Source: an uncultured Nitrospira sp.
Lineage (GTDB): Bacteria; Nitrospirota; Nitrospiria; Nitrospirales; Nitrospiraceae
DNA: 50,872 nt
NCBI GenBank assembly: GCA_902500785.1
Contig: CABVRW010000011.1
Location: 27,886-78,757 of the forward strand
Direction of reading: 5' to 3'
Notes under the pieces: model-generated
Database searches by the model: none
Told to the model about the DNA's origin: nothing
The model's input: the letters and a program-made list of their open reading frames with translations, nothing else
Made by a program: the position numbers and the translations under genes
In this document: in pieces, positions 1,959-50,853 of the stretch
Numbering within the stretch: position 1 is the stretch's first letter
Layout of the letters: each line of letters opens with the position of its first letter

Positions 1959-3212
1959 CTATTTGGCGGCGGTATCTCCGAGGCTGACAAACTGCTTGCG
2001 GAATCCGACGACTTTGGCGAGATAGTCTCGGGTTTCTTGATAGGGGAGCGCGGTGCGGAGACGGTCGTAGAGGGCGGCCGGTTGGAGGCCATTGATCTGC
2101 TGCAGGGCGGTGCGCTGGTCTTTGGCGAAGGTCTTGAACACATTGCCTGCGCCGGTGTTATAGGCCGAGATCACGCAGTATTCACGGGAGACCAGATCGG
2201 TGACATTCTCCAATTGAGAGTAGGTCAACACGTTGAGATAGGCCGTACCCAACTCAATGTTGTTGTCGGGATCGAAAAGGTAGTCTCGCGAAGGCGCCTT
2301 GTCCTCGCCTTTTGCCTTGCGGTACGCGTCTCGACCGCCGCTGGTGGGGACCAACTGCATCAACCCGTAGGCCGGCGCTGAGCTGACGGCAAAGGGATTA
2401 AAGTTGCTCTCCGTGCGGATGATGGCAAATACGAGGCTCGGGCTGATTTGGTAACGTTCCGCAAACTGGCCCACGACGCCGCGATATTTCTCGGCCTGCT
2501 TGTGCGAGAAATTGGTGACCATGGAAACGTTGACTGCGTGGGCGGTTTTCTGTTGTCCCTCTTCTTGATCGACCTTGCGGGTCGTTGTGCTTTTCGAGAG
2601 GAGTGACTCGGCAAACTGTTCCGCCTCCGCGGGCGTGCGCACCGGCTTGCCGGCGTGATCCAACACCAGACCCAGAAGGTACGGCTCTTTGTCGCTGGTT
2701 AAGGTGACTTCTTTATCTGTAAACAGATCGACGCTGCGTGGATCGTTGGGGGTGAGGAGGGTGGTGACGACGGCGTTTTTCAGGCTCGCTCGCGGGTCCT
2801 TCTCGTCAAGCGTCTCAATTAGAATGTTGCCCGCATCGAAATCCACGATAGCTCGGCTGCGGTAATTCTGTGTGTATTTCACATACTTCTTCTGCTCGGG
2901 CAGTTTGACCTCCTTGGTGCCCCACTTTTTCCCGACCTCACCGGTCAAGGCCGCCATCAGGACTTGGAAGTCGCGCTGAATCGAACGCAAGTCCCGCAGC
3001 AGAGCCTGCGGGTCTCGCCCATAGTTCTCTACGCGGCGCCGGGCGATATCAGCCGGATCTTTGCCGCCGACGATGTCCAGAACGGTTCGTCCGGTACTGC
3101 TGCCGACGGCCCGCTCGGCGGCACCGAGCATCTTGTCGGTGGTTTCGCAGCCTGAAAAGAGGGGTGAGATGATGAGGCTTAGCAGGAGTGCGGACAATCG
3201 TCGATCAGGCAT
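1959..3212 (-). CDS. MltC-like lipoprotein lytic murein transglycosylase
   Basis: This is a 417-residue peptidoglycan lytic transglycosylase that would cleave the MurNAc-GlcNAc bond to form 1,6-anhydro ends. Residues 1-22 form a lipoprotein signal ending in FSGC, a slightly atypical lipobox with Cys22. Residues of about 45-200 resemble the N-terminal domain of MltC. The SLT catalytic domain occupies about 245-400. IRTESNFNP places the catalytic glutamate at E268, followed by the SLT motif AYGLMQLVP. The ATG at 3212 has no Shine-Dalgarno sequence. A TATACT hexamer ends six bases before it, which suggests a leaderless transcript. The family call is firm; MltC as opposed to another SLT subfamily is likely. 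Confidence 0.87.
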   Translation of the reverse strand: MPDRRLSALLLSLIISPLFSGCETTDKMLGAAERAVGSSTGRTVLDIVGGKDPADIARRRVENYGRDPQALLRDLRSIQRDFQVLMAALTGEVGKKWGTKEVKLPEQKKYVKYTQNYRSRAIVDFDAGNILIETLDEKDPRASLKNAVVTTLLTPNDPRSVDLFTDKEVTLTSDKEPYLLGLVLDHAGKPVRTPAEAEQFAESLLSKSTTTRKVDQEEGQQKTAHAVNVSMVTNFSHKQAEKYRGVVGQFAERYQISPSLVFAIIRTESNFNPFAVSSAPAYGLMQLVPTSGGRDAYRKAKGEDKAPSRDYLFDPDNNIELGTAYLNVLTYSQLENVTDLVSREYCVISAYNTGAGNVFKTFAKDQRTALQQINGLQPAALYDRLRTALPYQETRDYLAKVVGFRKQFVSLGDTAAK

Positions 3213-33286: not shown

Positions 33287-33892
33287 TTGGCTGGTCCATC
33301 GCGACTCGGCGCCATCATTATCGTGACGGTACTTAGTTGCGCGGTCCTGGGCGCAGTCTGGGGACTGGTGCTCTACACCTTGCCGCAGAGCGACATGCTG
33401 CCCGAGCCGGTGCCGGTGTCCTCTCCGTCCCCGCTTCCGCCACGCCCTCCTTCAATCGTCAGCGTTCCACCTCATTTGTCCGATCCGCCTGCTCAAACAG
33501 TGATGGGGCAGGAGGACGCGTCGGTGGTTCATTCCGAGACGGCGGGGCCTCCTGCGGCTGAGCTCGTGCGCGTGCCGCTTGGGAGAGACGTGAAATGCGA
33601 TCTAGAAATAGAGTCGCTGTGCCCCGAGGAAGAAGGAGACCGGCAAGCGTGCCTGGAACGTAAGGCTGCTCACCTCTCCCTTCCCTGTCGGCCGATGTTG
33701 CGGGAGCGGCTCGTGCGGATGAAAGCGAACATGCAGCACATGCGCGCAGCCTGCGAGGCGGACCGAAGGCAGTTTTGTCGCGATGTGCCGGTCGGAGGTG
33801 GGGCGTTGCTGCAGTGCCTGGAATCCCACGCCCAGGAAGTCTCGGACCAGTGTTTTCAACTCTTGCCGAAGCGGGGTCGGTTGTTGAACTAG
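33287..33892 (+). CDS. membrane-anchored protein with two cysteine-rich repeats
   Basis: About 201 residues. An N-terminal membrane segment (LGAIIIVTVLSCAVLGAVWG) is followed by a Pro-rich linker (about 40-75) and two Cys-rich units. The first runs from CDLEIESLCPEE through QACLERKAAHLSLPC. The second runs from CEADRRQFCRDV through ALLQCLESHAQEVSDQC. The second unit is close to that of the 6437-6796 product. A TTG at 33287 is chosen as start because AGGAG lies just before it; a TTG at 33260 has no such site. Its stop shares the palindrome CTAG with the convergent FHA gene. Confidence 0.75.
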   Translation: MAGPSRLGAIIIVTVLSCAVLGAVWGLVLYTLPQSDMLPEPVPVSSPSPLPPRPPSIVSVPPHLSDPPAQTVMGQEDASVVHSETAGPPAAELVRVPLGRDVKCDLEIESLCPEEEGDRQACLERKAAHLSLPCRPMLRERLVRMKANMQHMRAACEADRRQFCRDVPVGGGALLQCLESHAQEVSDQCFQLLPKRGRLLN

Positions 33893-34620
33893 CATGCAGC
33901 GATGCTGCTCTTGGGGACACGCAGCAGAAACCGCATCGTGAGGCCGGCCACTTCCACTACATCTCCATTGCGGAGCAGGTGTTCTCCCTGAACCGGGCGG
34001 CCGTTGACGAGGATCCGTTTTCCGCTCTCGGTCTGGCTCACGACGTATCCCTCCCTTCGCCGGCTGATGATCGCGGCGGTCTTCGGTGCAAACCAACCGG
34101 TCAATGTGATCACGGCGTCGTCCTGAGCTCCGATCAGCGACACGTGTTTCGTCAGGCGATATTGCGATTGCCCGCTCTTTCCTGAGAGGATTTCCACCAC
34201 GCCGATCGCTTCTTCCCGCACCGGTCGATCACTGCCGATCGAGCGTGAGACGACCATCGTTTTGTCGGTGACCAGGTTCTCCTCAGTGAGAGCCTGGTCC
34301 GCAGTGGCCGGTTGTTCTCCCCGAAAAATCAGCCGGTGGGTGCCGACACGGATGCTGTCGGCATCCTGAAGTTGCCGCCGGTCGATTTTCTGCTCATTGA
34401 TGAAGGTGCCGTTGGTGCTGGAGAGATCTTCGAGAAACAGCACTTCCTGCACCTTGACGATACGCGCATGGTGGGCGGAGACCGCAGGGTCTTCCAGGCA
34501 GAGGTCGTTGTCGTGCTTCCGTCCGATTGTGAAGGGCGTGCAAACGATCTGGAGCTCCCTTGTGCCGCCGTGCGGCGCTTTCACGATAAGCGTGGGGGAT
34601 GCTGGGCGGTGCTGAGACAT
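33889..34620 (-). CDS. protein with two FHA domains
   Basis: A 243-residue protein with an N-terminal FHA domain (about 10-98) and a second, weaker FHA-like domain (about 140-238). The first has the phosphothreonine-binding layout FTIGRKHDNDLCL, VSAHHARI and SSTNGTFIN. The second reads VSLIGAQDDAVITL, KTAAIISRR and RILVNGRPV and lacks the usual Arg/Ser pair, so it may not bind phosphopeptide. It is the third gene of the kinase-phosphatase-FHA operon, nine bases after the phosphatase. It probably reads out phosphorylation by the kinase. Confidence 0.92.
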   Translation of the reverse strand: MSQHRPASPTLIVKAPHGGTRELQIVCTPFTIGRKHDNDLCLEDPAVSAHHARIVKVQEVLFLEDLSSTNGTFINEQKIDRRQLQDADSIRVGTHRLIFRGEQPATADQALTEENLVTDKTMVVSRSIGSDRPVREEAIGVVEILSGKSGQSQYRLTKHVSLIGAQDDAVITLTGWFAPKTAAIISRRREGYVVSQTESGKRILVNGRPVQGEHLLRNGDVVEVAGLTMRFLLRVPKSSIAAC

Positions 34621-34629
34621 GGTCGCTCC

Positions 34630-35466
34630 TTACGATAATTCGGTTGTCGATCCGGCGAACCACTGCGTGCACATGCGAGTCCACATGCCTGGTTTATGCT
34701 GCGTGAGTTTCACAACGATGACGGTCGTATTGTCGGTGCCGCCGGCCGCATTCGACAGGGCGATCAGACGGTCGGCGATCGGCTGCGGATCGGATGACTC
34801 TTGACCGACGCGCAGGATGGCATCGGAGGATACTCCGGTGGTCAGGCCATCGGAGCAGAGGAGCAGGGTATCGCCGTTCAGGACAGGGAGTTCTCCCAAC
34901 TCGACTTCCACCAGGGGATGGACTCCGACGGCGCGGGTCAACACATGCTTGTGGGGCACGTGCGTCGCGTCATCGGCGGCCAGGAGTCCGGACTGCACCT
35001 GCTCCTGCACGAGGGAATGGTCCGCGGTCAGGAGTTGCAACATGTCGCCGCGAATCAAGTAGAGGCGGCTGTCGCCTACGTGGGCGATCGAGAGAATCGG
35101 TCCGACGAGCCAGGCCGCCACCACGGTGGTTCCCATGCCGGCGTATTCGGCGTGGCGCACCGCGTCCTGATGCACCCTATGATTCGCGAGTCGGACGGCG
35201 CTCGCCAGTCGGTTGGTCGCGGACGAGAACTCCTGTCGCACGGCACCGATCATTGGGAGCGATGGATCGGCGTCGGCCTCCGTCAGGTGATGAGGAATAA
35301 TTTCGATGGCGCGGCTGCTGGCGACTTCGCCGGCGCGGTGTCCGCCCATTCCGTCGCACACGATGAACAGGCCTGTAGAGGGATCGGCGTGGAAGCGATC
35401 TTCGTTGTGTGAGCGGGTCAGCCCGACATCCGAGGTCGCTCCATGTGTGACGTGCAAGGAGTGCAT
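34630..35466 (-). CDS. PP2C-type (Stp/PppA-like) protein phosphatase
   Basis: A 278-residue metal-dependent Ser/Thr phosphatase. PP2C motifs are visible: GLTRSHNEDRF (about 17-27), IVCDGMGGHRAGEVAS (about 35-50), IAHVGDSRLYLI and LLLCSDGLT, with the metal-binding aspartates in place. It lies seven bases after the kinase gene and nine before the FHA gene, on the same strand. It would reverse the phosphorylation made by the neighbouring kinase. Confidence 0.95.
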   Translation of the reverse strand: MHSLHVTHGATSDVGLTRSHNEDRFHADPSTGLFIVCDGMGGHRAGEVASSRAIEIIPHHLTEADADPSLPMIGAVRQEFSSATNRLASAVRLANHRVHQDAVRHAEYAGMGTTVVAAWLVGPILSIAHVGDSRLYLIRGDMLQLLTADHSLVQEQVQSGLLAADDATHVPHKHVLTRAVGVHPLVEVELGELPVLNGDTLLLCSDGLTTGVSSDAILRVGQESSDPQPIADRLIALSNAAGGTDNTTVIVVKLTQHKPGMWTRMCTQWFAGSTTELS

Positions 35467-35473
35467 GGGCGGC

Positions 35474-36880
35474 CTATCTCGGCATCACCTGGAAGACGTC
35501 ACGGAGGTCCTGCGCCATGTCGCTGGCGTGACGGTAGCGATTCGGGATGTCTTTCTGGAGCGCGCGATCCAGAATGGCCTGCACCCGAGTCGGCAAATCG
35601 CGACGGTATTTGAGCAGCGGTGCGTGCGGGGCCTTGGCGATGCGGATGACGAGGGCGGCCATGTTTTCGGCGTCGAAGGGGCGTTCGCCGCTCAACAATT
35701 CGAACAGCACGATGCCCAATGAGAACACATCCGACCGACCGTCCACATCCTTTCCGGTGGCCTGTTCCGGTGACATGTAGCGCGGGGTGCCCAAGATCAT
35801 GCTGGTTTGGGTTTTCGAGGCGCTGGCCATCTTAGCGATCCCGAAATCCATCACCTTCACGAGGCGCTGTTTCAGAATCATGATGTTCGCGGGTTTGACG
35901 TCGCGATGAACCACGCCTTGGCTGTGGGCATAATCCAGGGCGTCGGCAACGGTCGCGACGATCTGTAAGGCTTGTTTGGCGGGGAGGAGGGTCGATTTCT
36001 GGCAGTAACAACTGAGCAGCGTGCCCTCAAGATACTCCATGGCGATATAGGCCAGGCCCTCCTGCTCGCCGGCGTCGTATACAGTAACGATATTGGGGTG
36101 CGAGAGGCGTCCGGTCGATTCGGCTTCACGAAAGAACCGGTTCCTGAATTCTTTGAGCTCTTCTTCGTTGTCGATATCATCCAGTCGCATGGTCTTGATG
36201 GCCACATGGCGTTGGATCGTCGGGTCTTTCCCCAGGTAGACGACCCCCATCGCGCCGCGACCGAGTTCTTTCACCACGTGATATCGTCCCAGCGAGGTCG
36301 GTACGGCTACGCCGTTGCGGACGATCACGGTGCCGGGCGCGCGCGCCGGGGTGGGGGCGACATCGGCGGCGGCGCGCGCCTCGTCGGCCGTCTCGTCTGA
36401 CGCCGCTTCCGCCTCTACCGGACGACGACGCGGACGTCCGGCGAAGGCTTGGGTCAATGCCTCGGCATGACGGACCCAGGCGAAGGTCAGCCACGTCGCC
36501 GAGCCGAGGAGGCCGCCCGTGAGCAGCCAGTTATAGAGCGGTTGTGTAGGGGGACCGAGCACAGGTATTCCGTGCGCATCGTAGGCGCGGGAGGCCACGA
36601 GGATGATCAGCAGGAAGGCCGAAGGAAACAGCACGGCGCGGATAAACGTTTGGCCCTTGCCGTTGTCGCGCAGGTCGCGCCGTGATCGGGCAGCGGCGAG
36701 CCAGATCATGAGCAGGCAGAGACCATCGGCGATCAACCGCACGGCTTGTGCGGCGTTCATTCTCAACGGCTGGATGAAGGTATGCGTGAACAGCGGAAGG
36801 GTGGCCAGTAACGGGCCTACCATCATCGCAAGAATAATGACGATCAAATATGGGCCGATCCAGCCCCAGGATGTGGTCAT
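35474..36880 (-). CDS. Hanks-type Ser/Thr protein kinase with N-terminal membrane segments
   Basis: A 468-residue kinase. About four membrane segments occupy residues 9-135, an acidic/Ala-rich linker about 150-195 and the kinase domain 200-465. The P-loop is LGRGAMGVVYLG, with Lys229 in VAIK, H325-R326-D327 in VHRDVKPAN, DFG at 345-347 and MSPE at 369-372. All catalytic residues are present. The order, membrane part first and kinase last with no sensor domain outside, is opposite to PknB. It heads the kinase-PP2C-FHA operon. Confidence 0.95.
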   Translation of the reverse strand: MTTSWGWIGPYLIVIILAMMVGPLLATLPLFTHTFIQPLRMNAAQAVRLIADGLCLLMIWLAAARSRRDLRDNGKGQTFIRAVLFPSAFLLIILVASRAYDAHGIPVLGPPTQPLYNWLLTGGLLGSATWLTFAWVRHAEALTQAFAGRPRRRPVEAEAASDETADEARAAADVAPTPARAPGTVIVRNGVAVPTSLGRYHVVKELGRGAMGVVYLGKDPTIQRHVAIKTMRLDDIDNEEELKEFRNRFFREAESTGRLSHPNIVTVYDAGEQEGLAYIAMEYLEGTLLSCYCQKSTLLPAKQALQIVATVADALDYAHSQGVVHRDVKPANIMILKQRLVKVMDFGIAKMASASKTQTSMILGTPRYMSPEQATGKDVDGRSDVFSLGIVLFELLSGERPFDAENMAALVIRIAKAPHAPLLKYRRDLPTRVQAILDRALQKDIPNRYRHASDMAQDLRDVFQVMPR

Positions 36881-37024: not shown

Positions 37025-37873
37025 TCAGGCGACGGTGGCGGCTTTTCTGAGCGGATCAAGCAGTTTCTCGGAGATCTTCAGCTGGCCTCGTCCGATGCCT
37101 ACCTCGATATCCGGCTTGGTCACGCCGTGGAAGTCGCTTCCCCCGGTGACGAGCAGGCCGCATTGTTTGGCCAGCTCAAGGTACTCGGTGGTTTGGCTCG
37201 GAGTGTGCGTGCTGTAGTGAACCTCGATGCCTCCCAGCCCGGCGGCTTTCAGTTCACGGACCAGGGTGCGCAAGCCGTCCGCTGACGTTCTGACCCAGGT
37301 GGGGTGGGCCAACACCGGGACGCCGCCGGCTTCACGGATCCATTGCACCGCTTCGGCCGGTTTCGGTAGCTCACGATCGACAAAGGCGGGACGGCCATTG
37401 GCCAGGTAACGGTCGAAGGCCTCTTTGGCCGAGGTGACGACTTTTTTCTCCATTAAGAGCCGGGCGATGTGGGGCCGCCCCACGGACTCCGTGCCGGCGA
37501 GTGCCCGCACTTCGTCATAGGTCATGGAGATGCCCAGCTCGTTGAGGCGTTGGACGATCTTTGGATTGCGCTGGTGGCGGCTGTCTCGCAAGGTGCTCAG
37601 GCGTTGGGCGAACAGCGGATCGGTCCAGTTCATAAAGTAGCCGAGAATATGGAGTTCGCTCTCGCCGAGACGCGAACTGATTTCGACGCCGGGGACCACT
37701 TCGATGCCGAGTTCCGCACCGATGGCCGTGGCTTCGGGGATCCCCTCGACAATGTCGTGGTCGGTAATCGCGAGCGCGGTGAGGCCGGCCTGCTTGGCGA
37801 AGGCCATCACCTCACGGGTGGAAAAGCTGCCGTCCGAATGGGTGGTATGGAGATGAAGATCAATGCGACTCAT
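37025..37873 (-). CDS. PHP-domain phosphoesterase (YciV/RNase AM-like)
   Basis: A 282-residue PHP-family metal-dependent phosphoesterase. Metal motifs are DLHLHTTHSDGSF (about 4-16), ALAITDHDIVEG (about 34-45), VPVLAHPTWVRT and TGGSDFHG near the C terminus. Proteins of this layout act on 3',5'-nucleoside bisphosphate or 5' RNA ends; the choice here is inference. It overlaps the FolB-methyltransferase stop by four bases, so the two are coupled. The kinase operon follows 144 bases downstream. Confidence 0.92.
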   Translation of the reverse strand: MSRIDLHLHTTHSDGSFSTREVMAFAKQAGLTALAITDHDIVEGIPEATAIGAELGIEVVPGVEISSRLGESELHILGYFMNWTDPLFAQRLSTLRDSRHQRNPKIVQRLNELGISMTYDEVRALAGTESVGRPHIARLLMEKKVVTSAKEAFDRYLANGRPAFVDRELPKPAEAVQWIREAGGVPVLAHPTWVRTSADGLRTLVRELKAAGLGGIEVHYSTHTPSQTTEYLELAKQCGLLVTGGSDFHGVTKPDIEVGIGRGQLKISEKLLDPLRKAATVA

Positions 37874-38808
37874 CGTGGTGTCTCAGGCCCCGCTTTCTGC
37901 GCGACTAAGCGCGCGGTATAGCATGGTCCGCTGCCATGGCCTCCGTCATGTTCGCCCTCATCGTAATGAAGCACCTGCAGCGGGGCGGTCAAACGGAGTA
38001 ATTCGTTCCGCGCCAGACAGAATTCCCATCGGCGCGGATGCTGATGGCGGAAGTAGTTCTCGATGGTAAAGGTTTCGTAGAGCAAGAGGCCGTTTGGTTT
38101 CAACGCGTCCATGAGGACGGGGAACAAGGGGCGATGCAGGTAAAAAAAGACCACGACGGCATCATAACATTCCTGGCCCAGGCTGGGAGGCCGGTCCGGG
38201 TGTTCTTCCATATCGAGCACCCGCGTGGTGAGGCCGGAGAGGTGCCGCGTTGCTGCAGCCGTTTCCAGCGCCGTCAACGCGTCCGAGTCCCGATCGATTG
38301 CCTCGACCTGCATGCCATGAGACAGGAGATGCAGCGCATGGCGCCCACGGCCTGCAGCGACATCCAGGACGCGGCCCTTGGGCAGTCGTCCAAGTTGTTG
38401 CACCAAAAAGGGCGCCGGGCCGGGGCCTGAGGGCTGTGTCGGTTGGGCGGCGCGGGTCCGCTCGAATCGGATGCCGACGGATCCGGCGACCATGGCGAGC
38501 GGCGCGTGGAGCTTGCGAATCCAGATGCGCACCCGATCGACCGGAAATTCGCTGAACAGCATTCCGACCAGCTGTTCCGCCAGTGATTCCAACAGCCGAC
38601 AGGTCAGCGAGCGGCTGAGTGTCACGAGCCGCTCCGCTACCCGGGCATAGTCGATCGTGTCGTCCAGTCGATCCGAGAGTCCGGCGGAGTCGACCGCCGC
38701 CTCCAGCTCAAGATCAATTGCGATGAGTTGCGGCGTGCGACGTTCTTCTTCCGTCACGCCGCAGTGGGCGTACAGTTCCAGGCGTTCGATGATGATGCGC
38801 TGCGCCAT
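37870..38808 (-). CDS. dihydroneopterin aldolase fused to a SAM methyltransferase
   Basis: A 312-residue two-domain protein. Residues 1-118 match FolB: HCGVTEEER (about 15-23), DTIDYARV with the conserved Tyr54, and IRKLHAPL with the catalytic-type Lys99. A Pro-rich linker (about 120-132) leads to a class I methyltransferase domain with motif I VLDVAAGRGRHAL (147-159), the acidic end of strand 2 VEAIDRD and a TehB-like continuation. The frame is continuous, so this is a fusion and not two overlapping genes. The methyltransferase substrate is unknown. The ATG at 38808 fits the FolB N terminus. Confidence 0.88.
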   Translation of the reverse strand: MAQRIIIERLELYAHCGVTEEERRTPQLIAIDLELEAAVDSAGLSDRLDDTIDYARVAERLVTLSRSLTCRLLESLAEQLVGMLFSEFPVDRVRIWIRKLHAPLAMVAGSVGIRFERTRAAQPTQPSGPGPAPFLVQQLGRLPKGRVLDVAAGRGRHALHLLSHGMQVEAIDRDSDALTALETAAATRHLSGLTTRVLDMEEHPDRPPSLGQECYDAVVVFFYLHRPLFPVLMDALKPNGLLLYETFTIENYFRHQHPRRWEFCLARNELLRLTAPLQVLHYDEGEHDGGHGSGPCYTARLVAQKAGPETPR

Positions 38809-38868
38809 GGCGGCATTGTCGTGGATGGACTTTCGGACTGTCAAGCAAGGCGAGGGCGAGGCCTTCGC

Positions 38869-40622: not shown

Positions 40623-41534
40623 TCAGACGCTGAACGGCTGCTGGCGCACAAACCGCGCCGCTGCTCCGAGCGTGAACAGGTTGGGCGTCTGACTGGCCGG
40701 CAGTCCCGCCTTGATCGCCGCATGGAACGCGGCATAGTTCCCGCGGTAGGTTCCATGATTCCAGACCTTGAGGACTTGCTCGGTGAAGGCGCCGTTGTGG
40801 TCGCCGTCCATGGAGGTCTGGTTATCCTGGCAGCCCGAGATGAGGAGGACGGAGGGTTTGAATTTTTTCGCGATGGCGGTCAGGCGCGGGCTCACGGCCA
40901 GTTGGGCGAGCACGCTATCCGGATCTACCACCGAGGCCTTGCCGGCGGCCTTGGCCACGTCCTGCTGCAATTTGTTGTAGAACGCCTGGTGCTCGCGATA
41001 GGTGCGGAGGCCGACGGAGATGGGCATCATCTTCGAGCGCCCGGCTGATTTGAGCGCATCGAACTGGGGTGGCATGTTGCGGGTGACCGTGCCGCTATGG
41101 CAACTGTCGGAGAACACGAGAATCCGTACCCCGGCTGCGAAACGGCTCAATTCGAAATACAACTCGTCGTCGATGAGCTGGCCGTCGTAGAGGCACCAGG
41201 TCTCATCCTGCTTGTCCGCCTCTTCGCCCGTGATGTCGGGGACCTGGCCGCCGTGTCCCGAATAGGTCAGGAAAAAGAAATCGCCTTTCCGCAACTGCTT
41301 GGCGGCCTTGCGCATGGCCGCCAGTGCCTGCGAGCGAGTTCCCTTCTTTGTCAGCAGCACGGTGGATTTCATGCCGCGCGACTTGGCGATCGCCGCCATA
41401 TCTTTCGCATCGAATTCACAGGCCGCGAGTTCGCCGCTCCAGCCACCGTAGGCGGCGGGGCTCACGGCGTTCAGTCCGATGTGTAGGGACATACCCTTCG
41501 CTGTGCTGCGTGATGACGAGGTGGTCTTGGCCAT
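40623..41534 (-). CDS. caspase-fold peptidase (C14, metacaspase-like)
   Basis: A 303-residue single-domain caspase-like cysteine peptidase. The catalytic dyad is His94 in TYSGHGGQV and Cys145 in FSDSCHSGT, the caspase-fold signatures. The N-terminal strand [10 protein letters not shown] and the D44 region match metacaspases of bacteria. There is no prodomain, signal peptide or attached effector domain. The ATG at 41534 has a perfect GGAGG; the longer reading to 41672 is rejected. The neighbouring gene encodes a secreted protein. Roles in regulated proteolysis or defence are possible but not shown. Confidence 0.9.
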
Positions 41535-41714
41535 ACGTACCTCCTTGGTCGAGAGACAGTTGTCAGGATGAAACGATCGACGATCAAAAGATGGCGGTAC
41601 GGTAGTCTTTAAGGCGAAATCTGTCAACGGAGAAGGAGGGACGAATGCCGGTATTCTACTCGCTCGGAGCAAGGGAGCCGGCGCTCGGGCCTCCCCGGAA
41701 TGTTCAATGCTCAG

Positions 41715-43393: not shown

Positions 43394-43468
43394 CGAGGAG
43401 AAACGGTATGTTTCCAGTTGTCTAGAGAGGCAGTGAGGGCGAGTGACAAGCCTGAAAGGGAGAGCCGA

Positions 43469-45925
43469 ATGAGCGAAGTCCATCAGTTTGCAAACTGGTT
43501 CGCACGTGCCATGGGAAATGAACCCTATCCATTTCAAATCCGGTTTGCCTGTGAGCCAAAACTATCAGAGCTCGTGGATGTGCCGACCGGTATGGGGAAG
43601 ACTGCGATGGCGGTGTTGGGGTGGCTTTGGAGGAGGCGCTTCGCTGGAGAGAGAGTCAGGAAGGCAACCCCGCGTCGCTTGGTTTACTGCTTGCCGATGA
43701 GAGTACTGGTGGAACAAACGGTTGAGAATGCTCAAGCTTGGCTCAAGAACCTAGAGCGCCTTGGAGATCTTGAGAAAGGTAAAGTCTGCGTGCACGTCCT
43801 CATGGGCGGCGACATAGACAACGACTGGGATGCACACCCAGAGGCAGATGCAATTTTGATTGGAACCCAAGATCAACTACTTTCGCGCGCCTTGAACAGA
43901 GGCTATGCCATGAGTCGTTATCGCTGGCCCATGCACTATGCCTTACTGAACAACGACTGCTTGTGGCTTATGGACGAGGTTCAGTTGATGGGAGTGGGGT
44001 TGACCACAACGGCTCAATTACAAGCCTTTCGGGAAAAGTTCTGCACCTTTGGCCCCGCACAATCCGTATGGATGTCGGCCACCTTAAAGACTGAAACTTT
44101 GGCCACCGTTGATTTTGCAGAAAGGGCAGAAATTCTTCCTCGGCTCTCCTTAAGTGCCGATGATACCAAGCATTCATGCGTCGCCGTTCGTGTGAGCGCT
44201 GTGAAGCTATTGCACAAGGCCGAAACGATTTGGAAACAGGAGACAAGAGATGACTATGCAGAACAGCTAACGAGGGAAGTGTGCCGCCATCATCAGTCGG
44301 GTACTCTGACCGTTGTGATGGTCAATCGAGTAGGCCGCGCGCAAGATATCTTTGTTGCGTTACATCGACAGTTGAAGAGTGCATCTAGCAAACCAGATCT
44401 CTGTTTGATTCATTCTAGGTTCCGCCAGGCGGAGCGAGTGCGCCTCCAACAACGGCTGAAAGAAAGGCCGGAACAGGGTCGAATTGTGGTGACGACTCAG
44501 GCAATTGAAGCCGGGGTAGATATCTCTGCGCGGACGTTGTTTGCGGAATTGGCCCCTTGGTCATCGTTGGTGCAACGGTTTGGACGCTGCAATCGGTATG
44601 GGGAGTGGGAACAGAAAAATCCTGCTCACGTATTCTGGATCGACTTGGAAACCTCAATGGCAGATAAGAAGGGGGAACAGCAGCTAGTTCCGGAAGCGGC
44701 TCTGCCTTATGAGATTGACGATCTGGCTTGGTCAAGATGCCAGTTGCACCACCTCAAAGAAGTGGGGCCAAACAAGGTGTCGAAGATTGCGGGTCCCGAA
44801 AAAGACGAGTTCGGGCATGTGCTCCGCCGCCGTGATGTGATGGATCTGTTCGACACGACGCCAGACTTGGCTGGAAACGACATTGATGTCTCTCGCTATA
44901 TTCGCGACGGAGAGAATAACGATGTGCAGGTGTATTGGCGGCAGTGGGACGGGGAAAAGCCGTCGGCTGATATGCCTGCGCCAAGACCGGAAGAGTTTTG
45001 CGCAGTCGCAATTGGGCGAATCAAGGAGTTTCTAAAAAAAGATGTCGTGGCTTTTCGATGGGATGGGTTGGAGCGTCACTGGCTTCCAGTGAGAAAAGAT
45101 AGTGTCTGGCCGGGCCTTAGCCTACTGCTCCATGTCTCCGAAGGTGGTTATGCGGAAGACCTTGGCTGGACAGGAAAGAATGACGGTGCGGTGCTAGCTA
45201 TTCCGTTGCTGGATGGTCTGACCTCAAATGACGCATTCGATGAAGACCGGTTCACTTTCGCCCCGATTATCAAACGATTCGTTTCATTGAAAGCCCATGC
45301 CACGGATGTAGCTCAAGAGATGAACGCGTTGAAAACAGCCCTCGACGACCCCACTTTCAAAGTTCCGTGGAGCGAATTGCTCACGGCAGCTCGATGGCAC
45401 GACGTAGGGAAGGCCCATGAGGTGTTTCAGAGGATGTTGACAGACCCATTACTGCCTAACAACCCTCATAAGTCCGGTGGCCCTTGGGCTAAGTCCGATC
45501 ATCAGAAAGGCCGCCCAGAACGCAAGTATTTTCGCCATGAACTAGCTTCATCATTGGCCCTCTTGATGCACAAGGAATCCGACCTTGCGGCCTACCTAGC
45601 TGCGGCACATCACGGGAAGGTCCGACTCTCAATTCGGTCCTTGCCCGATGAGGAGGTACCGCCGGAAGTGCGACGATTTGCGCGTGGCGTCTGGGAAGGA
45701 GATGAGCTTCCTGGAATTGACCTTGGAGATGGAATTACAACTCAGGCAGTGTCTCTCACTTTGAGTTTCATGGAGATGGGCGAAGGACCGTGTGGTGCAA
45801 GTTGGTTGGAGAGGATGGTCCGTCTGCGGGATCACTATGGCCCGTTCAAATTGGCATGGATGGAGACCTTGGTGCGTGTGGCGGACTGTCGTGGGACAGC
45901 GAAAGAAGGAGAAGCAAATGCCTGA
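43469..45925 (+). CDS. cas3: Cas3, type I-G (helicase with C-terminal HD nuclease)
   Basis: An 818-residue Cas3 in the domain order peculiar to type I-G/I-U: helicase first, HD nuclease last. Helicase motifs include DVPTGMGKT (Walker A Lys44), DEVQ (169-172), SATL, QAIEAGVDI and QRFGRCNR. The HD part has WHDVGKAHE (His644, Asp645) and AAHHGK (His714, His715). It would unwind and degrade DNA recruited by the Cascade complex. The ATG at 43469 follows AAAGGGAGAG; an in-frame TTG at 43418 is less likely. It overlaps csx17 by eight bases. Confidence 0.95.
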   Translation: MSEVHQFANWFARAMGNEPYPFQIRFACEPKLSELVDVPTGMGKTAMAVLGWLWRRRFAGERVRKATPRRLVYCLPMRVLVEQTVENAQAWLKNLERLGDLEKGKVCVHVLMGGDIDNDWDAHPEADAILIGTQDQLLSRALNRGYAMSRYRWPMHYALLNNDCLWLMDEVQLMGVGLTTTAQLQAFREKFCTFGPAQSVWMSATLKTETLATVDFAERAEILPRLSLSADDTKHSCVAVRVSAVKLLHKAETIWKQETRDDYAEQLTREVCRHHQSGTLTVVMVNRVGRAQDIFVALHRQLKSASSKPDLCLIHSRFRQAERVRLQQRLKERPEQGRIVVTTQAIEAGVDISARTLFAELAPWSSLVQRFGRCNRYGEWEQKNPAHVFWIDLETSMADKKGEQQLVPEAALPYEIDDLAWSRCQLHHLKEVGPNKVSKIAGPEKDEFGHVLRRRDVMDLFDTTPDLAGNDIDVSRYIRDGENNDVQVYWRQWDGEKPSADMPAPRPEEFCAVAIGRIKEFLKKDVVAFRWDGLERHWLPVRKDSVWPGLSLLLHVSEGGYAEDLGWTGKNDGAVLAIPLLDGLTSNDAFDEDRFTFAPIIKRFVSLKAHATDVAQEMNALKTALDDPTFKVPWSELLTAARWHDVGKAHEVFQRMLTDPLLPNNPHKSGGPWAKSDHQKGRPERKYFRHELASSLALLMHKESDLAAYLAAAHHGKVRLSIRSLPDEEVPPEVRRFARGVWEGDELPGIDLGDGITTQAVSLTLSFMEMGEGPCGASWLERMVRLRDHYGPFKLAWMETLVRVADCRGTAKEGEANA

Positions 45926-48035
45926 TCTTCAGCTTGCCGGATGTCGGCCAGAACCTTTGGCGCATTATCTAAAAGCCCTAGGCATTCTTCGTCTCGTAAG
46001 CGAACAAGCTGATCCTGAGGCCCGAGGATGGTGGGCCGATGATGTGTTCTGGCTCCGGACGAAACTGATCCGTGAAGAATTGGCAACGTTCTTCCTAGAA
46101 AAATACGAACCCACTCCGATTGTCGGTCCATGGGGTGCGCGATCAGGATTCTTTCCTGGCTCATCAGAAAGTGCAGCGCGTCAAGCCTTAGCTGAAATTC
46201 AAAAGAGTAAGAAGGATCGCCTGCGGTCATTTCGGGAAGTGATCGAAGCAGTTCAGAACCTGCTGGACCGATTGAGAGTCAAGGAAAAGCCTGAGACGGA
46301 TCAGGAGAAGCTCAGATTGATGCGGGCGTGTCGTGCATATCTTCCAGATAATGTAATTCTCTTTCTAGATGCGGCTTTTGTTTTGACAGAAGAAGGGAAA
46401 AGCTACCCACCAATTCTTGGCACAGGGGGCAACGAGGGTAGCGGTAGTTACATGTCTGGTTACTCCCAGCAAGTCGTCACGATAATTATCAAAGGTGAAG
46501 GGGAAAATGCTCTTCAGACTGCGCTATGGGGAATGCCACTGCCTGAGGCAACATCCCGGCAAACCCCAGGCCATTTCGCCCCATCGGCTGTTGGCGGAGC
46601 GAATGCGTCAACGGGATTTGCAGGACCTGTTGTGACCAATCCATGGGATTATCTTCTTCTCATGGAAGGAGTGATGGTGTGGTCAACAGCCGCCGCCAGA
46701 CGTTTGGGCACCCAAACGTCAAGCAGGCTTGCGTCACCATTTACCGTACTTCCATCTGGGGCTGGATATGCTTCGGCCACACTGTCTGATTCAGTGAAAC
46801 CGGCTCAGGCAAAACGAGAGCCGTTTGAAGTGTGGTTGCCTCTATGGAAGTCTCCATCCAAGTTCGAGGAAATTAAAGCGCTCTTCTCCGAGGGACGAGT
46901 CGAAATTGGGAAACGTCAAGCAAGAAACGGGGTGGATTTTGCTAGGGCTGTAGCGAGTCTTGGAGTCGCGCGAGGAATTGTTCAGTTTTCGAGGCACAGC
47001 TTCCTTATGCGGAACGGCCAGAATTTTTTCGCCGCTCCACTTGGCCGATGGAACGTTACGCAGCAACCCGAAATAGACTTGTTAAAGGAAATAGACGTCT
47101 GGTTTGACTGTTTTCGTCGGGTTGCCCTAGGAGACAGGGTGCCTGCTCGCATGGGGCAAGCGCTTCGTGGCATAGAGCGAGCCATCATGGAGTATTGCCA
47201 AACAGGCGATGCCCCAAGAACGGGGAACATCTTGATCGCTCTCGGTGAGGCCGAAGCAACTCTCGCGCAATCTCCTCTTCAGTTTCGTAAAAAGCATTTT
47301 CTCAAGCCCATCCCACTTCTCTCGCCAAAGTGGCTGGAAGCCGCTAACGACGGCAGTGTCGAGTTTCGGTTGGCTGCATCCCTGGCTTCTGTGGGCCTTC
47401 GCGAGAATATGGAGCCTGTACAAGTTGGAGCGGCGTGGGCTGGGTGGCTGGATGCCGATACCCATCCCCGTGTGGTGTGGGGGCATGGATCACTGACGGA
47501 CAACCTGACCGCTGTGTTGTCTCGAAGGTGTATGGATGCCCAGCGTGAACAGCGAAAGGGATTGCCCCTAGCAGGGAGATATCCGACATCCCTCAATGAC
47601 ATCCATGAGTTTGTGGTCGGCAATGTGGATGAGCGGCGGTTAGAGGGACTCTTGCGTGGACTCACGTTAATCAATTGGCATCTGGTTCAAGAGTCAGCAC
47701 AGAGAATGGACGATCATGAGAGCCCGTTCCCCGCACTCTATGCGCTGCTCAAGTTGACCCATCTGTCCAATCCCTTCAGAGGCATCTCAATCTCCTATAT
47801 GCCGGCGATCCTTGCGCGGGCTGCTGCGGGAGAAGCATCAGAGGCCTCGCGGCAGGCTATCCGGCGTCTGCGCGGGTGTGGATTCATACCGGCGGTGAAG
47901 GTAATCTCAGAGCCCGCCAATGTCACCCGCCGCATTGCAGGCGCTGTTCTTTTCCATATTTCAAAACAGCAGGAAGTGAGTCTGGCCGAGGGAATTCTCA
48001 GTCCGAAGAAACTCGAACATCAAGTAACAGTGTGA
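45918..48035 (+). CDS. csx17: Csx17 / Cas8 of type I-G
   Basis: A 705-residue protein that starts inside the last codons of cas3. The family N terminus is visible as LAGCRPEPLAHYLKALGILR (about 5-24), together with WWADDVFWLR and GGNEGSGSYMSGYSQQ (about 171-186). Csx17 is the large subunit (Cas8) of type I-G Cascade and is thought to recognise the PAM and hold the target strand. The start at 45918 is fixed by this N terminus. The gene is complete and unbroken. Confidence 0.93.
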   Translation: MPDLQLAGCRPEPLAHYLKALGILRLVSEQADPEARGWWADDVFWLRTKLIREELATFFLEKYEPTPIVGPWGARSGFFPGSSESAARQALAEIQKSKKDRLRSFREVIEAVQNLLDRLRVKEKPETDQEKLRLMRACRAYLPDNVILFLDAAFVLTEEGKSYPPILGTGGNEGSGSYMSGYSQQVVTIIIKGEGENALQTALWGMPLPEATSRQTPGHFAPSAVGGANASTGFAGPVVTNPWDYLLLMEGVMVWSTAAARRLGTQTSSRLASPFTVLPSGAGYASATLSDSVKPAQAKREPFEVWLPLWKSPSKFEEIKALFSEGRVEIGKRQARNGVDFARAVASLGVARGIVQFSRHSFLMRNGQNFFAAPLGRWNVTQQPEIDLLKEIDVWFDCFRRVALGDRVPARMGQALRGIERAIMEYCQTGDAPRTGNILIALGEAEATLAQSPLQFRKKHFLKPIPLLSPKWLEAANDGSVEFRLAASLASVGLRENMEPVQVGAAWAGWLDADTHPRVVWGHGSLTDNLTAVLSRRCMDAQREQRKGLPLAGRYPTSLNDIHEFVVGNVDERRLEGLLRGLTLINWHLVQESAQRMDDHESPFPALYALLKLTHLSNPFRGISISYMPAILARAAAGEASEASRQAIRRLRGCGFIPAVKVISEPANVTRRIAGAVLFHISKQQEVSLAEGILSPKKLEHQVTV

Positions 48036-48064
48036 TTTCTGTTTAGCGTGAAAGGAGACCGTGC

Positions 48065-49303
48065 ATGGCATCAGGAGTGGATTTCGACAAACTTCAGAAT
48101 GTTCCTCGGTTATTAATCGAGGCTGACCTGCAGCCTATTCAAGGCACGCGCTTTCAACCGACGGGATTCCCGGATTTGGGGGCGGCGACGTACACGCTGC
48201 ATGACGGCACAGAAATGTTGTTGGTGGAGTCTCCTCAAAGCATGGCGAATCGGCTGGAGGAAGTGTGTTGGGATAGAGGAGCAAGCACGCCAGTAAAGGA
48301 GCTTCACGAGTTGTCATATGTTCAAGTCAAAATCGGAAACAAATTTTTGACTTCGAGTTGGCTTGAATCGCACCGCTTAGCGTCCGCCTTCATCAAAGAT
48401 TCCACTCATGCGAACGGAAAAGGCATGGTGGAATTCTTTTGTGAGGAATTTAGCTTGAGAAAGAACAAGCCCCTTGATTGGGCGCTGATTTACAGAAAAA
48501 TATTCTCGTTGGATCCCATGTGTCTTCTTCACGGTGTGTTCTTCGCGGATAAAAAGTGGCCGGGACAACCCAAAGTACCCAGAGCACTATCGGCATTCAT
48601 TGAAGCCGCTGATGTGATGAGAGCACAATCCGGTGGGGCAAAGAAGGATGATGTGTCGCATAAGACAGAGGAAGGCCAGAAAGCAACCGAAGGCTATGGC
48701 CATGTCCCTTTTCCTCGAACCGAATTTACGGCTAAACGAATTACGGCATATTTTCACATTGATTTGCGGCAAATACGCTCCTATGGGCTATCTCCTGAAG
48801 CCACAAATCTTCTTATAGCGTTGGCTCTCTTTAAGATCCGCACGTGGTTGGATAGCGACATGGTTCTGCGGACCAATTGCAAGTTTTCGCTTGAGGATGG
48901 CATCCGGTTCAAAGAGCCAAAGGACTATCAGTTGCCAGAACTTGGTGCGCTTATTGAAGCGCTAAAGAATTCTATTAAGCAATGCAAGTCTCTTTTTTCC
49001 TCTGTTCCTACAACGGTAACGTGGAGTCCCAAGCCTGTGACTGTAGAACTGCCTCCTGACTTGCCCGCCTCATTGGCCATTCCTGAGAGTCTAGCTGATC
49101 ATTGCCGCGTTGAGACGAAGAAAGCGAAAACTGGAGAGAAAAAGGTGATCGTTTTTGAAGGTCCCATGGACAATGAGGACTTGGAAGTCCTAAAGGCTGC
49201 AAATCCTGATCAGGAAACGTTACACAAAGCTTTCGGCAAACTATTAGAAGCGTCACGAAAGGTCTACGGGGAAGAATCTGACAGTGAAGAGGAGCCTACA
49301 TGA
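48065..49303 (+). CDS. csb1: Csb1 / Cas7 of type I-G (GSU0053 family)
   Basis: A 412-residue Cas7-family backbone subunit that would polymerise along the crRNA. The family signature runs through GTRFQPTGFPDLGAATY (about 27-43) and LLVESPQSMANRLEEVCWD (about 52-70). Downstream segments SSWLESHRLASAFI and VPFPRTEFTAKRITAYF also fit. A Glu/Asp-rich tail ends the protein. AAAGGAG precedes the ATG. It overlaps csb2 by four bases. Confidence 0.94.
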   Translation: MASGVDFDKLQNVPRLLIEADLQPIQGTRFQPTGFPDLGAATYTLHDGTEMLLVESPQSMANRLEEVCWDRGASTPVKELHELSYVQVKIGNKFLTSSWLESHRLASAFIKDSTHANGKGMVEFFCEEFSLRKNKPLDWALIYRKIFSLDPMCLLHGVFFADKKWPGQPKVPRALSAFIEAADVMRAQSGGAKKDDVSHKTEEGQKATEGYGHVPFPRTEFTAKRITAYFHIDLRQIRSYGLSPEATNLLIALALFKIRTWLDSDMVLRTNCKFSLEDGIRFKEPKDYQLPELGALIEALKNSIKQCKSLFSSVPTTVTWSPKPVTVELPPDLPASLAIPESLADHCRVETKKAKTGEKKVIVFEGPMDNEDLEVLKAANPDQETLHKAFGKLLEASRKVYGEESDSEEEPT

Positions 49304-50853
49304 TTGCCCTGCGCATCCGGTTCATAACTGGCCGGTATCATGCGACGCCCTGGGGGCGGCATGTAAACGAAGGTGCTGTGGAATGGCCACCGTCGCCTTG
49401 GCGGATTTTGCGGGCGCTGATTGCCGTGTGGCACCGAAAGTTTTCAGGGGATATCCCTGAGGCCTCTGTCAGAAACGTGCTCGAACGGCTGACTGATCTT
49501 CCCGTCTTTCATTTGCCAAAGGCCGCATTGGGGCATACGCGGCACTTCATGCCGCAAAAAAATCATCTGGGCGCAGACAAGACCAAAATCTTTGACGCCT
49601 TTGTATCCATTCATCCTGATGGTGGCCTCATTGTGGCTTGGCCCCATATAACCGTATCTCCAAAAGAGCGAGAGGTGCTGACGAGCCTGGCTTCTGGACT
49701 GAGTTACCTAGGCCGTGCAGAAAGTTGGGCAATGGCCGAAGTGTTGGATCAATGGGATGGTGACATCAATTGTCGTCCGATTGAGGTGGGAGTGTCAGTT
49801 GAAGGAGAGCGAGTGCGTATGCTTGCCTCGATGACACCAGACAGCTTTGTCACATGGAAGATGGGTTATGAGACTAAAGTTGTTGGGGAAACCACCATAG
49901 TGACCAAAGCGGGGAGAAAGAAGAAGGCTTCTCAGAGTCCGGTTCCCCCTAATCTGTGGAGCGCGCTGCATGCGGAGACCAGCGATCTTCAGAAGCAGGG
50001 CTGGTCCGCTGCACCTGGAAGTCGGTGGGTAGATTATGAGAGGGCGGACGATGCTTTGCGTGTGACGTATCAACGAAAACCAAAGACCGAGCAAATTCGG
50101 CCAACGGTGGCCCGCTTTGCTCTGTCGAGTGCCGTGTTGCCTCGCTTGATTGATGCCGTGTTTCTTGGGGAGCGGATGCGTCAAGCTTTGATGGCCAAGT
50201 CTCGTGGACTCAACGGAAGCGAGCATGCTCTTCCCGTGTTCTCAGGTAAGGGAGCCGATGGTCTTCGATTAGATGACGATCATTCACACGCATTCTATTT
50301 GCCCAGCGATGAGGATGGCGACGGACGGATTGACCATATCACCGTGTATGCTGCTCAGCGGTTCGACAAGTATGCGCAGCAAGCTATTGGGACGCTTAAG
50401 AAGCTCTGGGGGGTCGGCGGACATGACATTCACACGGTTCTCATTGGAATTGGTGAGCCGCACGATTATGGCGGATTCTTGATGCGTGATGGACAGGCTT
50501 CTACACTGGCTCAATCTCGAATCTGGCGTTCAGTAACGCCCTATGTCCTAACCCGCTATCCTAAAAAGAACGGCAAGGATTCTCCGGTTTCACAGGTTGA
50601 GAGAGAGTTGGTGCGTCGGGGATTTCCTCAGCCTGAACGAATAGATCATCTGGACCACGCAATGATTAATGAAAGAAAAGTGCGGTGGTTGGAGTTCCGG
50701 CGTTTCCGGAACGGAGGTGGAGGACAGCTTGCCGATTCTCGTGGATTCGGCTTTGAGGTTGTATTCTCGGAGCCAGTTCGCGGCCCCATTGCCCTCGGCT
50801 ACGCTTGCCACTTCGGCCTCGGCCAATTCGTGCCGGTGGTGGAGATGGAATGA
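49300..50853 (+). CDS. csb2: Csb2 / Cas5-Cas6 fusion of type I-G (GSU0054 family)
   Basis: A 517-residue protein whose start overlaps the csb1 stop (ATGA). The N-terminal Cas5-like part has RYHATPWGRHVNEGAVEWPP (about 12-31) followed by SPWRILRALIAV. The C-terminal Cas6-like half includes DDHSHAFYLPSDEDGDGRID (about 326-345), then HITVYA. In type I-G this protein both caps the crRNA 5' end and processes the pre-crRNA. The fusion is the normal form for the subtype. Its stop overlaps a further start. Confidence 0.94.
   Translation: MIALRIRFITGRYHATPWGRHVNEGAVEWPPSPWRILRALIAVWHRKFSGDIPEASVRNVLERLTDLPVFHLPKAALGHTRHFMPQKNHLGADKTKIFDAFVSIHPDGGLIVAWPHITVSPKEREVLTSLASGLSYLGRAESWAMAEVLDQWDGDINCRPIEVGVSVEGERVRMLASMTPDSFVTWKMGYETKVVGETTIVTKAGRKKKASQSPVPPNLWSALHAETSDLQKQGWSAAPGSRWVDYERADDALRVTYQRKPKTEQIRPTVARFALSSAVLPRLIDAVFLGERMRQALMAKSRGLNGSEHALPVFSGKGADGLRLDDDHSHAFYLPSDEDGDGRIDHITVYAAQRFDKYAQQAIGTLKKLWGVGGHDIHTVLIGIGEPHDYGGFLMRDGQASTLAQSRIWRSVTPYVLTRYPKKNGKDSPVSQVERELVRRGFPQPERIDHLDHAMINERKVRWLEFRRFRNGGGGQLADSRGFGFEVVFSEPVRGPIALGYACHFGLGQFVPVVEME

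Follow-up and report, generated by a model that had tools for sequence, protein, structure and literature searches.

Does the dihydroneopterin aldolase (FolB) of Nitrospira carry a methyltransferase at its C terminus and, if so, what does the second enzyme do? The question is raised by a gene in a 50,872-nucleotide stretch of DNA from an uncultured Nitrospira sp. (the window), in which an earlier note had reported the two domains in a single reading frame. The current analysis confirmed this frame, which runs uninterrupted from ATG to TGA and yields matches to both domains (Table 1). FolB residues Tyr54 and Lys99 occupy the positions claimed for them, Glu22 and Glu74 are present as well, and methyltransferase motif I, described as intact, reads VLDVAAGRGR. 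A TTG codon at position 38844 offers an alternative start and a longer frame. The codon matching position 38808 is ATG in all 80 named loci (the best 80 of 165 relatives), so that translation likely begins at this ATG and not at the TTG. A search of the window against Rfam for riboswitch control gave zero matches at the gathering threshold.

Table 1. Coordinates of the FolB-methyltransferase fusion, its parts, and the adjacent PHP gene in the window
Feature	Position	Strand	Comment
FolB-methyltransferase fusion gene	37870..38808	minus	312 aa; ATG start 38808; TGA stop 37872-37870
FolB (dihydroneopterin aldolase) domain	38464..38796	minus	residues 5-115; PF02152 and TIGR00525
FolB catalytic codons	Glu22 38743-38745; Tyr54 38647-38649; Glu74 38587-38589; Lys99 38512-38514	minus	
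Linker	38416..38454	minus	residues 119-131, variable; dN/dS and pLDDT
TehB/Slr1183-type class I SAM methyltransferase domain	37891..38415	minus	residues 132-306 (about 130-306)
Methyltransferase motif I	38341-38373	minus	
HPRRxEFCLxxNEL-type motif of the methyltransferase domain	37999-38040	minus	
PHP-domain phosphoesterase	37025..37873	minus	282 aa; PF02811, 48.1 bits; 4-nt overlap with the fusion stop (37873-37870)

A stop codon lost in the assembly, the refuting case named in the earlier note, could in principle have joined two separate genes, and the two domains do occur as separate genes outside the order that carries the fusion. We take this order to be Nitrospirales, as the named genomes closest to that of the window are Nitrospira. 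However, the full-length fusion was detected in 40 of 41 relatives (its own genome counted) and in all 56 sampled Nitrospirales genomes, versus none of 142 genomes sampled from elsewhere in the phylum. A class-level sample gave the same picture, with the fusion in 24 of 24 members of the order and in 0 of 34 others; the phylum and class genomes from outside the order are overlapping samples. Both domains are matched in all 80 named loci (the best 80 of 165 relatives), among which is the complete chromosome of “Candidatus Nitrospira defluvii” (FP929003.1), and the fusion is also found in the single-contig genomes G001, G003, G006, G008, and G023. These recurrences, along with the FolB survey described below, refute the assembly artifact, leaving it a practically negligible chance; the same fusion, which the earlier note had proposed to look for in other genomes, is a regular feature of the order.

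In the survey of 146 genomes of the order, FolB was found in 142, and 140 of its 143 occurrences lie within open frames of at least 304 aa, which were scored as fusions by length alone; direct matching of the methyltransferase half was confined to the searches of the 41 relatives, of the phylum, class, and named-locus samples, and of the exceptions. Two of the three shorter frames (in G247 and G268) are fusions cut by contig ends, and the third, in G237, is an extra folB. The four genomes lacking FolB comprise two that are 64 to 73% complete, G037 (92%), and G287 (99%), and nothing was found when they were searched again with the whole fusion protein. Thus, the fusion gene is not strictly universal in the order. 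G287, which belongs to the same family as the window genome, yielded neither FolB nor the fusion in either search; this may reflect a gap or a true loss. A candidate divergent fusion in G303 (a 312-aa frame with 34 residues matching FolB) turned out to be a folB gene interrupted by Ns and preceded by ORFs that by eye resemble queC and folE. A plasmid search gave 24 records; the 12 matches listed involve the methyltransferase half only, and none covers 80% of the query.

Outside the order, all 15 unfused FolB loci that were read are stand-alone frames of 119 to 186 aa, and the folB and methyltransferase genes of G313, a single-contig genome, are about 211 kb apart. On a 33-row tree, the fused methyltransferases require one change (support, 74/61). 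With the parts unlinked in the sister lineages and a single change on the tree, the fusion most simply would have arisen a single time, no later than in the Nitrospirales ancestor, although the support for this is modest.

The N-terminal half is an ordinary FolB domain, scoring 96.6 bits against PF02152 (cut-off, 31.8) and 82.7 bits against TIGR00525 (cut-off, 72.15). Residues Glu22, Tyr54, Glu74, and Lys99, placed by alignment to 1dhn, show no variation among the 15 diverse sequences of alignment A1, taken from the fetched fusions, or among the 37 sequences of alignment A2, which consists of the window protein and 36 named loci (from the best 80 of 165 relatives). Locus L168 was left out of A2 because a stop close to the C terminus (codon 304) fell inside its match range. 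We take these four residues to be the dihydroneopterin aldolase (DHNA) active site, with the roles assigned in the Staphylococcus aureus enzyme. The predicted structure of this half matches DHNA structures with Z about 17 (17.2 for 7su7). Monofunctional FolB proteins (PF02152, TIGR00525; 3o1k, 7su7, 1dhn) thus have the same domain, fold, and catalytic residues; the solved single-domain chains are only ~120 to 146 aa long, whereas the Nitrospirales FolB bears a C-terminal methyltransferase.

The window genome (3.9 Mb, 99.6% complete) was also checked for further folB copies, as the earlier note had advised, and none was found beyond the fusion. Homologs of folE, folK, and folP are all present, with folK as a separate gene; the two Pterin_bind matches fall in a 327-aa frame of dihydropteroate synthase (DHPS) size and in a 1229-aa frame that is probably MetH. 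With the rest of the pathway in place and no other FolB in the genome, the FolB half is very probably the housekeeping dihydroneopterin aldolase, as judged from its family and the pathway.

The class I methyltransferase match in Pfam and NCBIfam starts at about residue 141, with 31.5 bits for Methyltransf_25 (cut-off, 27) and 31.7 bits for the Pfam TehB family (cut-off, 20.4). The TehB equivalog models score 29.1 to 35.7 bits, far under their cut-offs of 218 to 303, so this half is not TehB itself. The SAM-binding residues of motif I and of the acidic end of strand 2 (D149, A151, G155, R156, and D172) are invariant in both alignments, and G153 is found in 15 of 15 sequences of A1 and 36 of 37 of A2. 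The predicted structure has the Rossmann methyltransferase fold, matching Slr1183 (3mer) with Z 23.6 at 1.9 Å over 167 residues and TehB with Z about 22 (22.2 for 2xva). The proteins Slr1183 (3mer, 2kw5) and TehB (2xva, 3m70) share with the Nitrospirales domain a common fold over 161 to 174 residues (Z 22 to 24), 19 to 25% identity, and the SAM motif I; unlike them, it is fused to FolB and falls short of the TehB equivalog cut-offs.

Selection acts on both halves alike. Within a set made up of the window gene and 17 close relatives, the median pairwise dN/dS is 0.117 for the FolB domain and 0.123 for the methyltransferase, versus 0.588 for the linker; purifying selection is equal on the two domains and relaxed in the linker. 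An AlphaFold model of the fusion (37 sequences; mean pLDDT, 83.5) contains two well-formed domains separated by linker residues 122 to 127 with pLDDT under 50; its pTM of 0.62 makes the mutual placement of the domains unreliable. The earlier suggestion of a bifunctional protein is well supported: the fusion is genuine, of old origin, and conserved.

Relatives of the methyltransferase half from other classes of the phylum (e.g., L052, L055, and L056) are up to 52% identical to the fused domain and are encoded as separate genes, with no folB in the fetched flanks. The fetched flanks of 20 such loci contained no match to the FolB or PHP proteins of the window. Their neighbors, explored as a clue to the substrate, varied among loci and gave no answer: the examples include prmA, ChaN-like and crcB genes, and a thiol-peroxidase-like fragment, mostly unrelated to folate, along with a nearby GcvT-like gene, whose product would use folate, in L061. 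The substrate-side motif HPRRxEFCLxxNEL is kept in the fusions and, with small changes, in these unfused relatives. The shared motif and the mostly non-folate neighbors suggest, as the simplest view, that the fused domain keeps an older, general substrate.

The earlier note had further described the fusion as coupled by overlap to a PHP phosphoesterase gene. In the window, the coupling stands: the PHP ATG lies inside the TGA of the fusion (ATGA). Across families, it holds in part, being strong in f1 and f3, where PHP is found beside the fusion in the example loci, and absent from f2 and f4, the deepest families. A PHP start directly follows the fusion in all 80 named loci (the best 80 of 165 relatives); among these, a 4-nt overlap was called in 62, four of them (L163-L166) at TTG, and in six more the PHP start was called further upstream with an internal ATG at the overlap position. 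Flanking genes were called by a simple script that missed some genes. The closest NCBIfam model to the PHP protein, 3',5'-nucleoside bisphosphate phosphatase (NF041577), gives 225.2 bits against a cut-off of 400, and the next nearest, RNase Rnm, is likewise below its cut-off. In the window, the PHP gene is followed downstream (33889-36880) by genes for an FHA-domain protein, an Stp1-type PP2C phosphatase, and a Ser/Thr kinase in a row, and this arrangement is retained next to the fusion at several loci within its family. Upstream of the fusion, the window encodes a caspase-domain (Peptidase_C14) protein (40623-41672), also found in L047, L049, L050, and L051. CRISPR-type genes occupy positions 43418-50853, with a Cas3-like helicase (43418-45925), a Cas_GSU0053 (Csb1-like) gene (48065-49303), and two ORFs without Pfam matches between and after them; by its looks, this is presumably a type I-U/I-G system.

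Elsewhere in the order, the neighbors of the fusion, named from Pfam or NCBIfam matches at example loci, include pterin and one-carbon genes in three of the four families seen. The fusion is oriented divergently to folD and metF in L038 of family f4 (with a similar layout in L039 and L040), to moaD-moaE and moaA in f2 (L034 and L037), and to moaC in f3 (L044-L046), where in L046 moaE, moaA, an accD-like gene, and folC lie past moaC; L032 and L091 (f3) and L041 (f4) have a different layout. In L034 (1827-2672) and L037 (3082-3978), the MoaD-like (ThiS) and MoaE domains are in one protein. Such neighbors might point to a pterin as the substrate of the methyltransferase as well, but FolB alone would account for them. 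Genome G237 encodes a fusion with all four FolB residues intact and a second, ordinary folB, which was probably acquired. This second gene (about 2739-3077, minus strand, within the region 2221-3850 of L187, G237:C39) sits between a folM-like SDR gene and a folK-like ORF, both named by eye. That the genome keeps an intact fusion as well is a hint that the fused protein does more than the aldolase reaction; otherwise, the second copy may be recent.

Taken together, the data are best explained by a protein that likely combines the housekeeping FolB aldolase with a conserved TehB/Slr1183-type small-molecule methyltransferase whose old substrate was probably kept. The FolB half would act between FolE and FolK in folate synthesis, converting 7,8-dihydroneopterin to 6-hydroxymethyl-7,8-dihydropterin and glycolaldehyde, and the C-terminal half is predicted to be an active SAM-dependent enzyme. 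Once a separate gene, the methyltransferase would have been joined to folB a single time, in or before the Nitrospirales ancestor, probably retaining its original substrate. Known FolB enzymes are octamers or tetramers, so that the FolB oligomer would display several methyltransferases on flexible linkers. The aldolase activity, the methyltransferase activity, and the oligomer are all inferred. The gain from the fusion may lie in the shared expression of two one-carbon-metabolism activities or in channeling.

A narrower form of this explanation, compatible with a bifunctional housekeeping protein, would have the methyltransferase act on a metalloid, a thiol, or another toxic small molecule, as in TehB-like detoxification, with the fusion to FolB serving stable expression only. 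The closest folds, Slr1183 and TehB, point in this direction, as do the thiol-peroxidase-like fragment and the ChaN-like and crcB genes next to some of the unfused relatives; however, the low TehB equivalog scores and the lack of a constant neighborhood of the unfused genes make it somewhat unlikely. Alternatively, the C-terminal half could methylate the substrate or the product of FolB, a dihydropterin, yielding a Nitrospirales-specific modified pterin or folate. Fixation of the fusion in almost every genome sampled from the order, the moa, folD, metF, and folC neighbors in some families, and the retention of the four FolB residues in the G237 fusion despite an ordinary folB are consistent with such a role. 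However, the substrate-side motifs are common to the unfused methyltransferases, whose neighbors are mostly non-folate; FolE, FolK, and FolP belong to ordinary families; and no paper about methylated pterins in bacteria turned up in a narrow literature search. Pterin methylation by the fusion is therefore possible but unsupported, and we consider it unlikely.

As an addition to any of these readings, the PHP protein could supply FolB with its substrate as the missing dihydroneopterin-phosphate phosphatase, which would make the locus a folate operon. This idea fits the regular position and frequent overlap of the PHP gene in the named loci, and a non-specific enzyme is believed to be responsible for the monophosphatase step (PMC1971073). 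However, PHP does not adjoin the fusion in f2 and f4, the flanks fetched for 15 unfused FolB loci (L072-L086) contain no match to PHP, and the nearest models, albeit below their cut-offs, are a nucleoside bisphosphate phosphatase and RNase Rnm, so such a function is doubtful. Combining the two proposals, with PHP supplying dihydroneopterin and the methyltransferase acting on dihydroneopterin or on 6-hydroxymethyl-dihydropterin as it leaves FolB, would yield a self-contained, undescribed cofactor module producing a Nitrospirales methylated pterin, which we consider improbable.

As far as the searches reach, FolB-methyltransferase is a new domain architecture assembled from known families, with each half ordinary in itself. 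No paper on such a fusion was found in a literature search that covered few subscription journals, and it goes unmentioned in the accessible parts of PMC1971073, PMC3223725, PMC5041015, and PMC4921024. FolB is likewise joined to a second enzyme in the bifunctional FolB-FolK protein of Streptococcus pneumoniae (2cg8), and a FolB-FolK fusion is described in Bifidobacterium longum (PMC1971073). In those proteins FolB is joined to the enzyme that follows it in folate synthesis, in contrast to the Nitrospirales fusion, whose partner is a methyltransferase without a known role in this path. Whether the fusion amounts to more than two ordinary halves depends on the methyl acceptor, which is beyond the reach of sequence. 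Fusions kept so widely usually signal a functional tie, and here a folate enzyme is paired with a SAM user, both belonging to one-carbon metabolism. The fusion is the sole FolB of its host, in a lineage of environmentally important nitrite oxidizers, and it offers a route to the substrate of an orphan methyltransferase family that is found unfused in other classes of the phylum.
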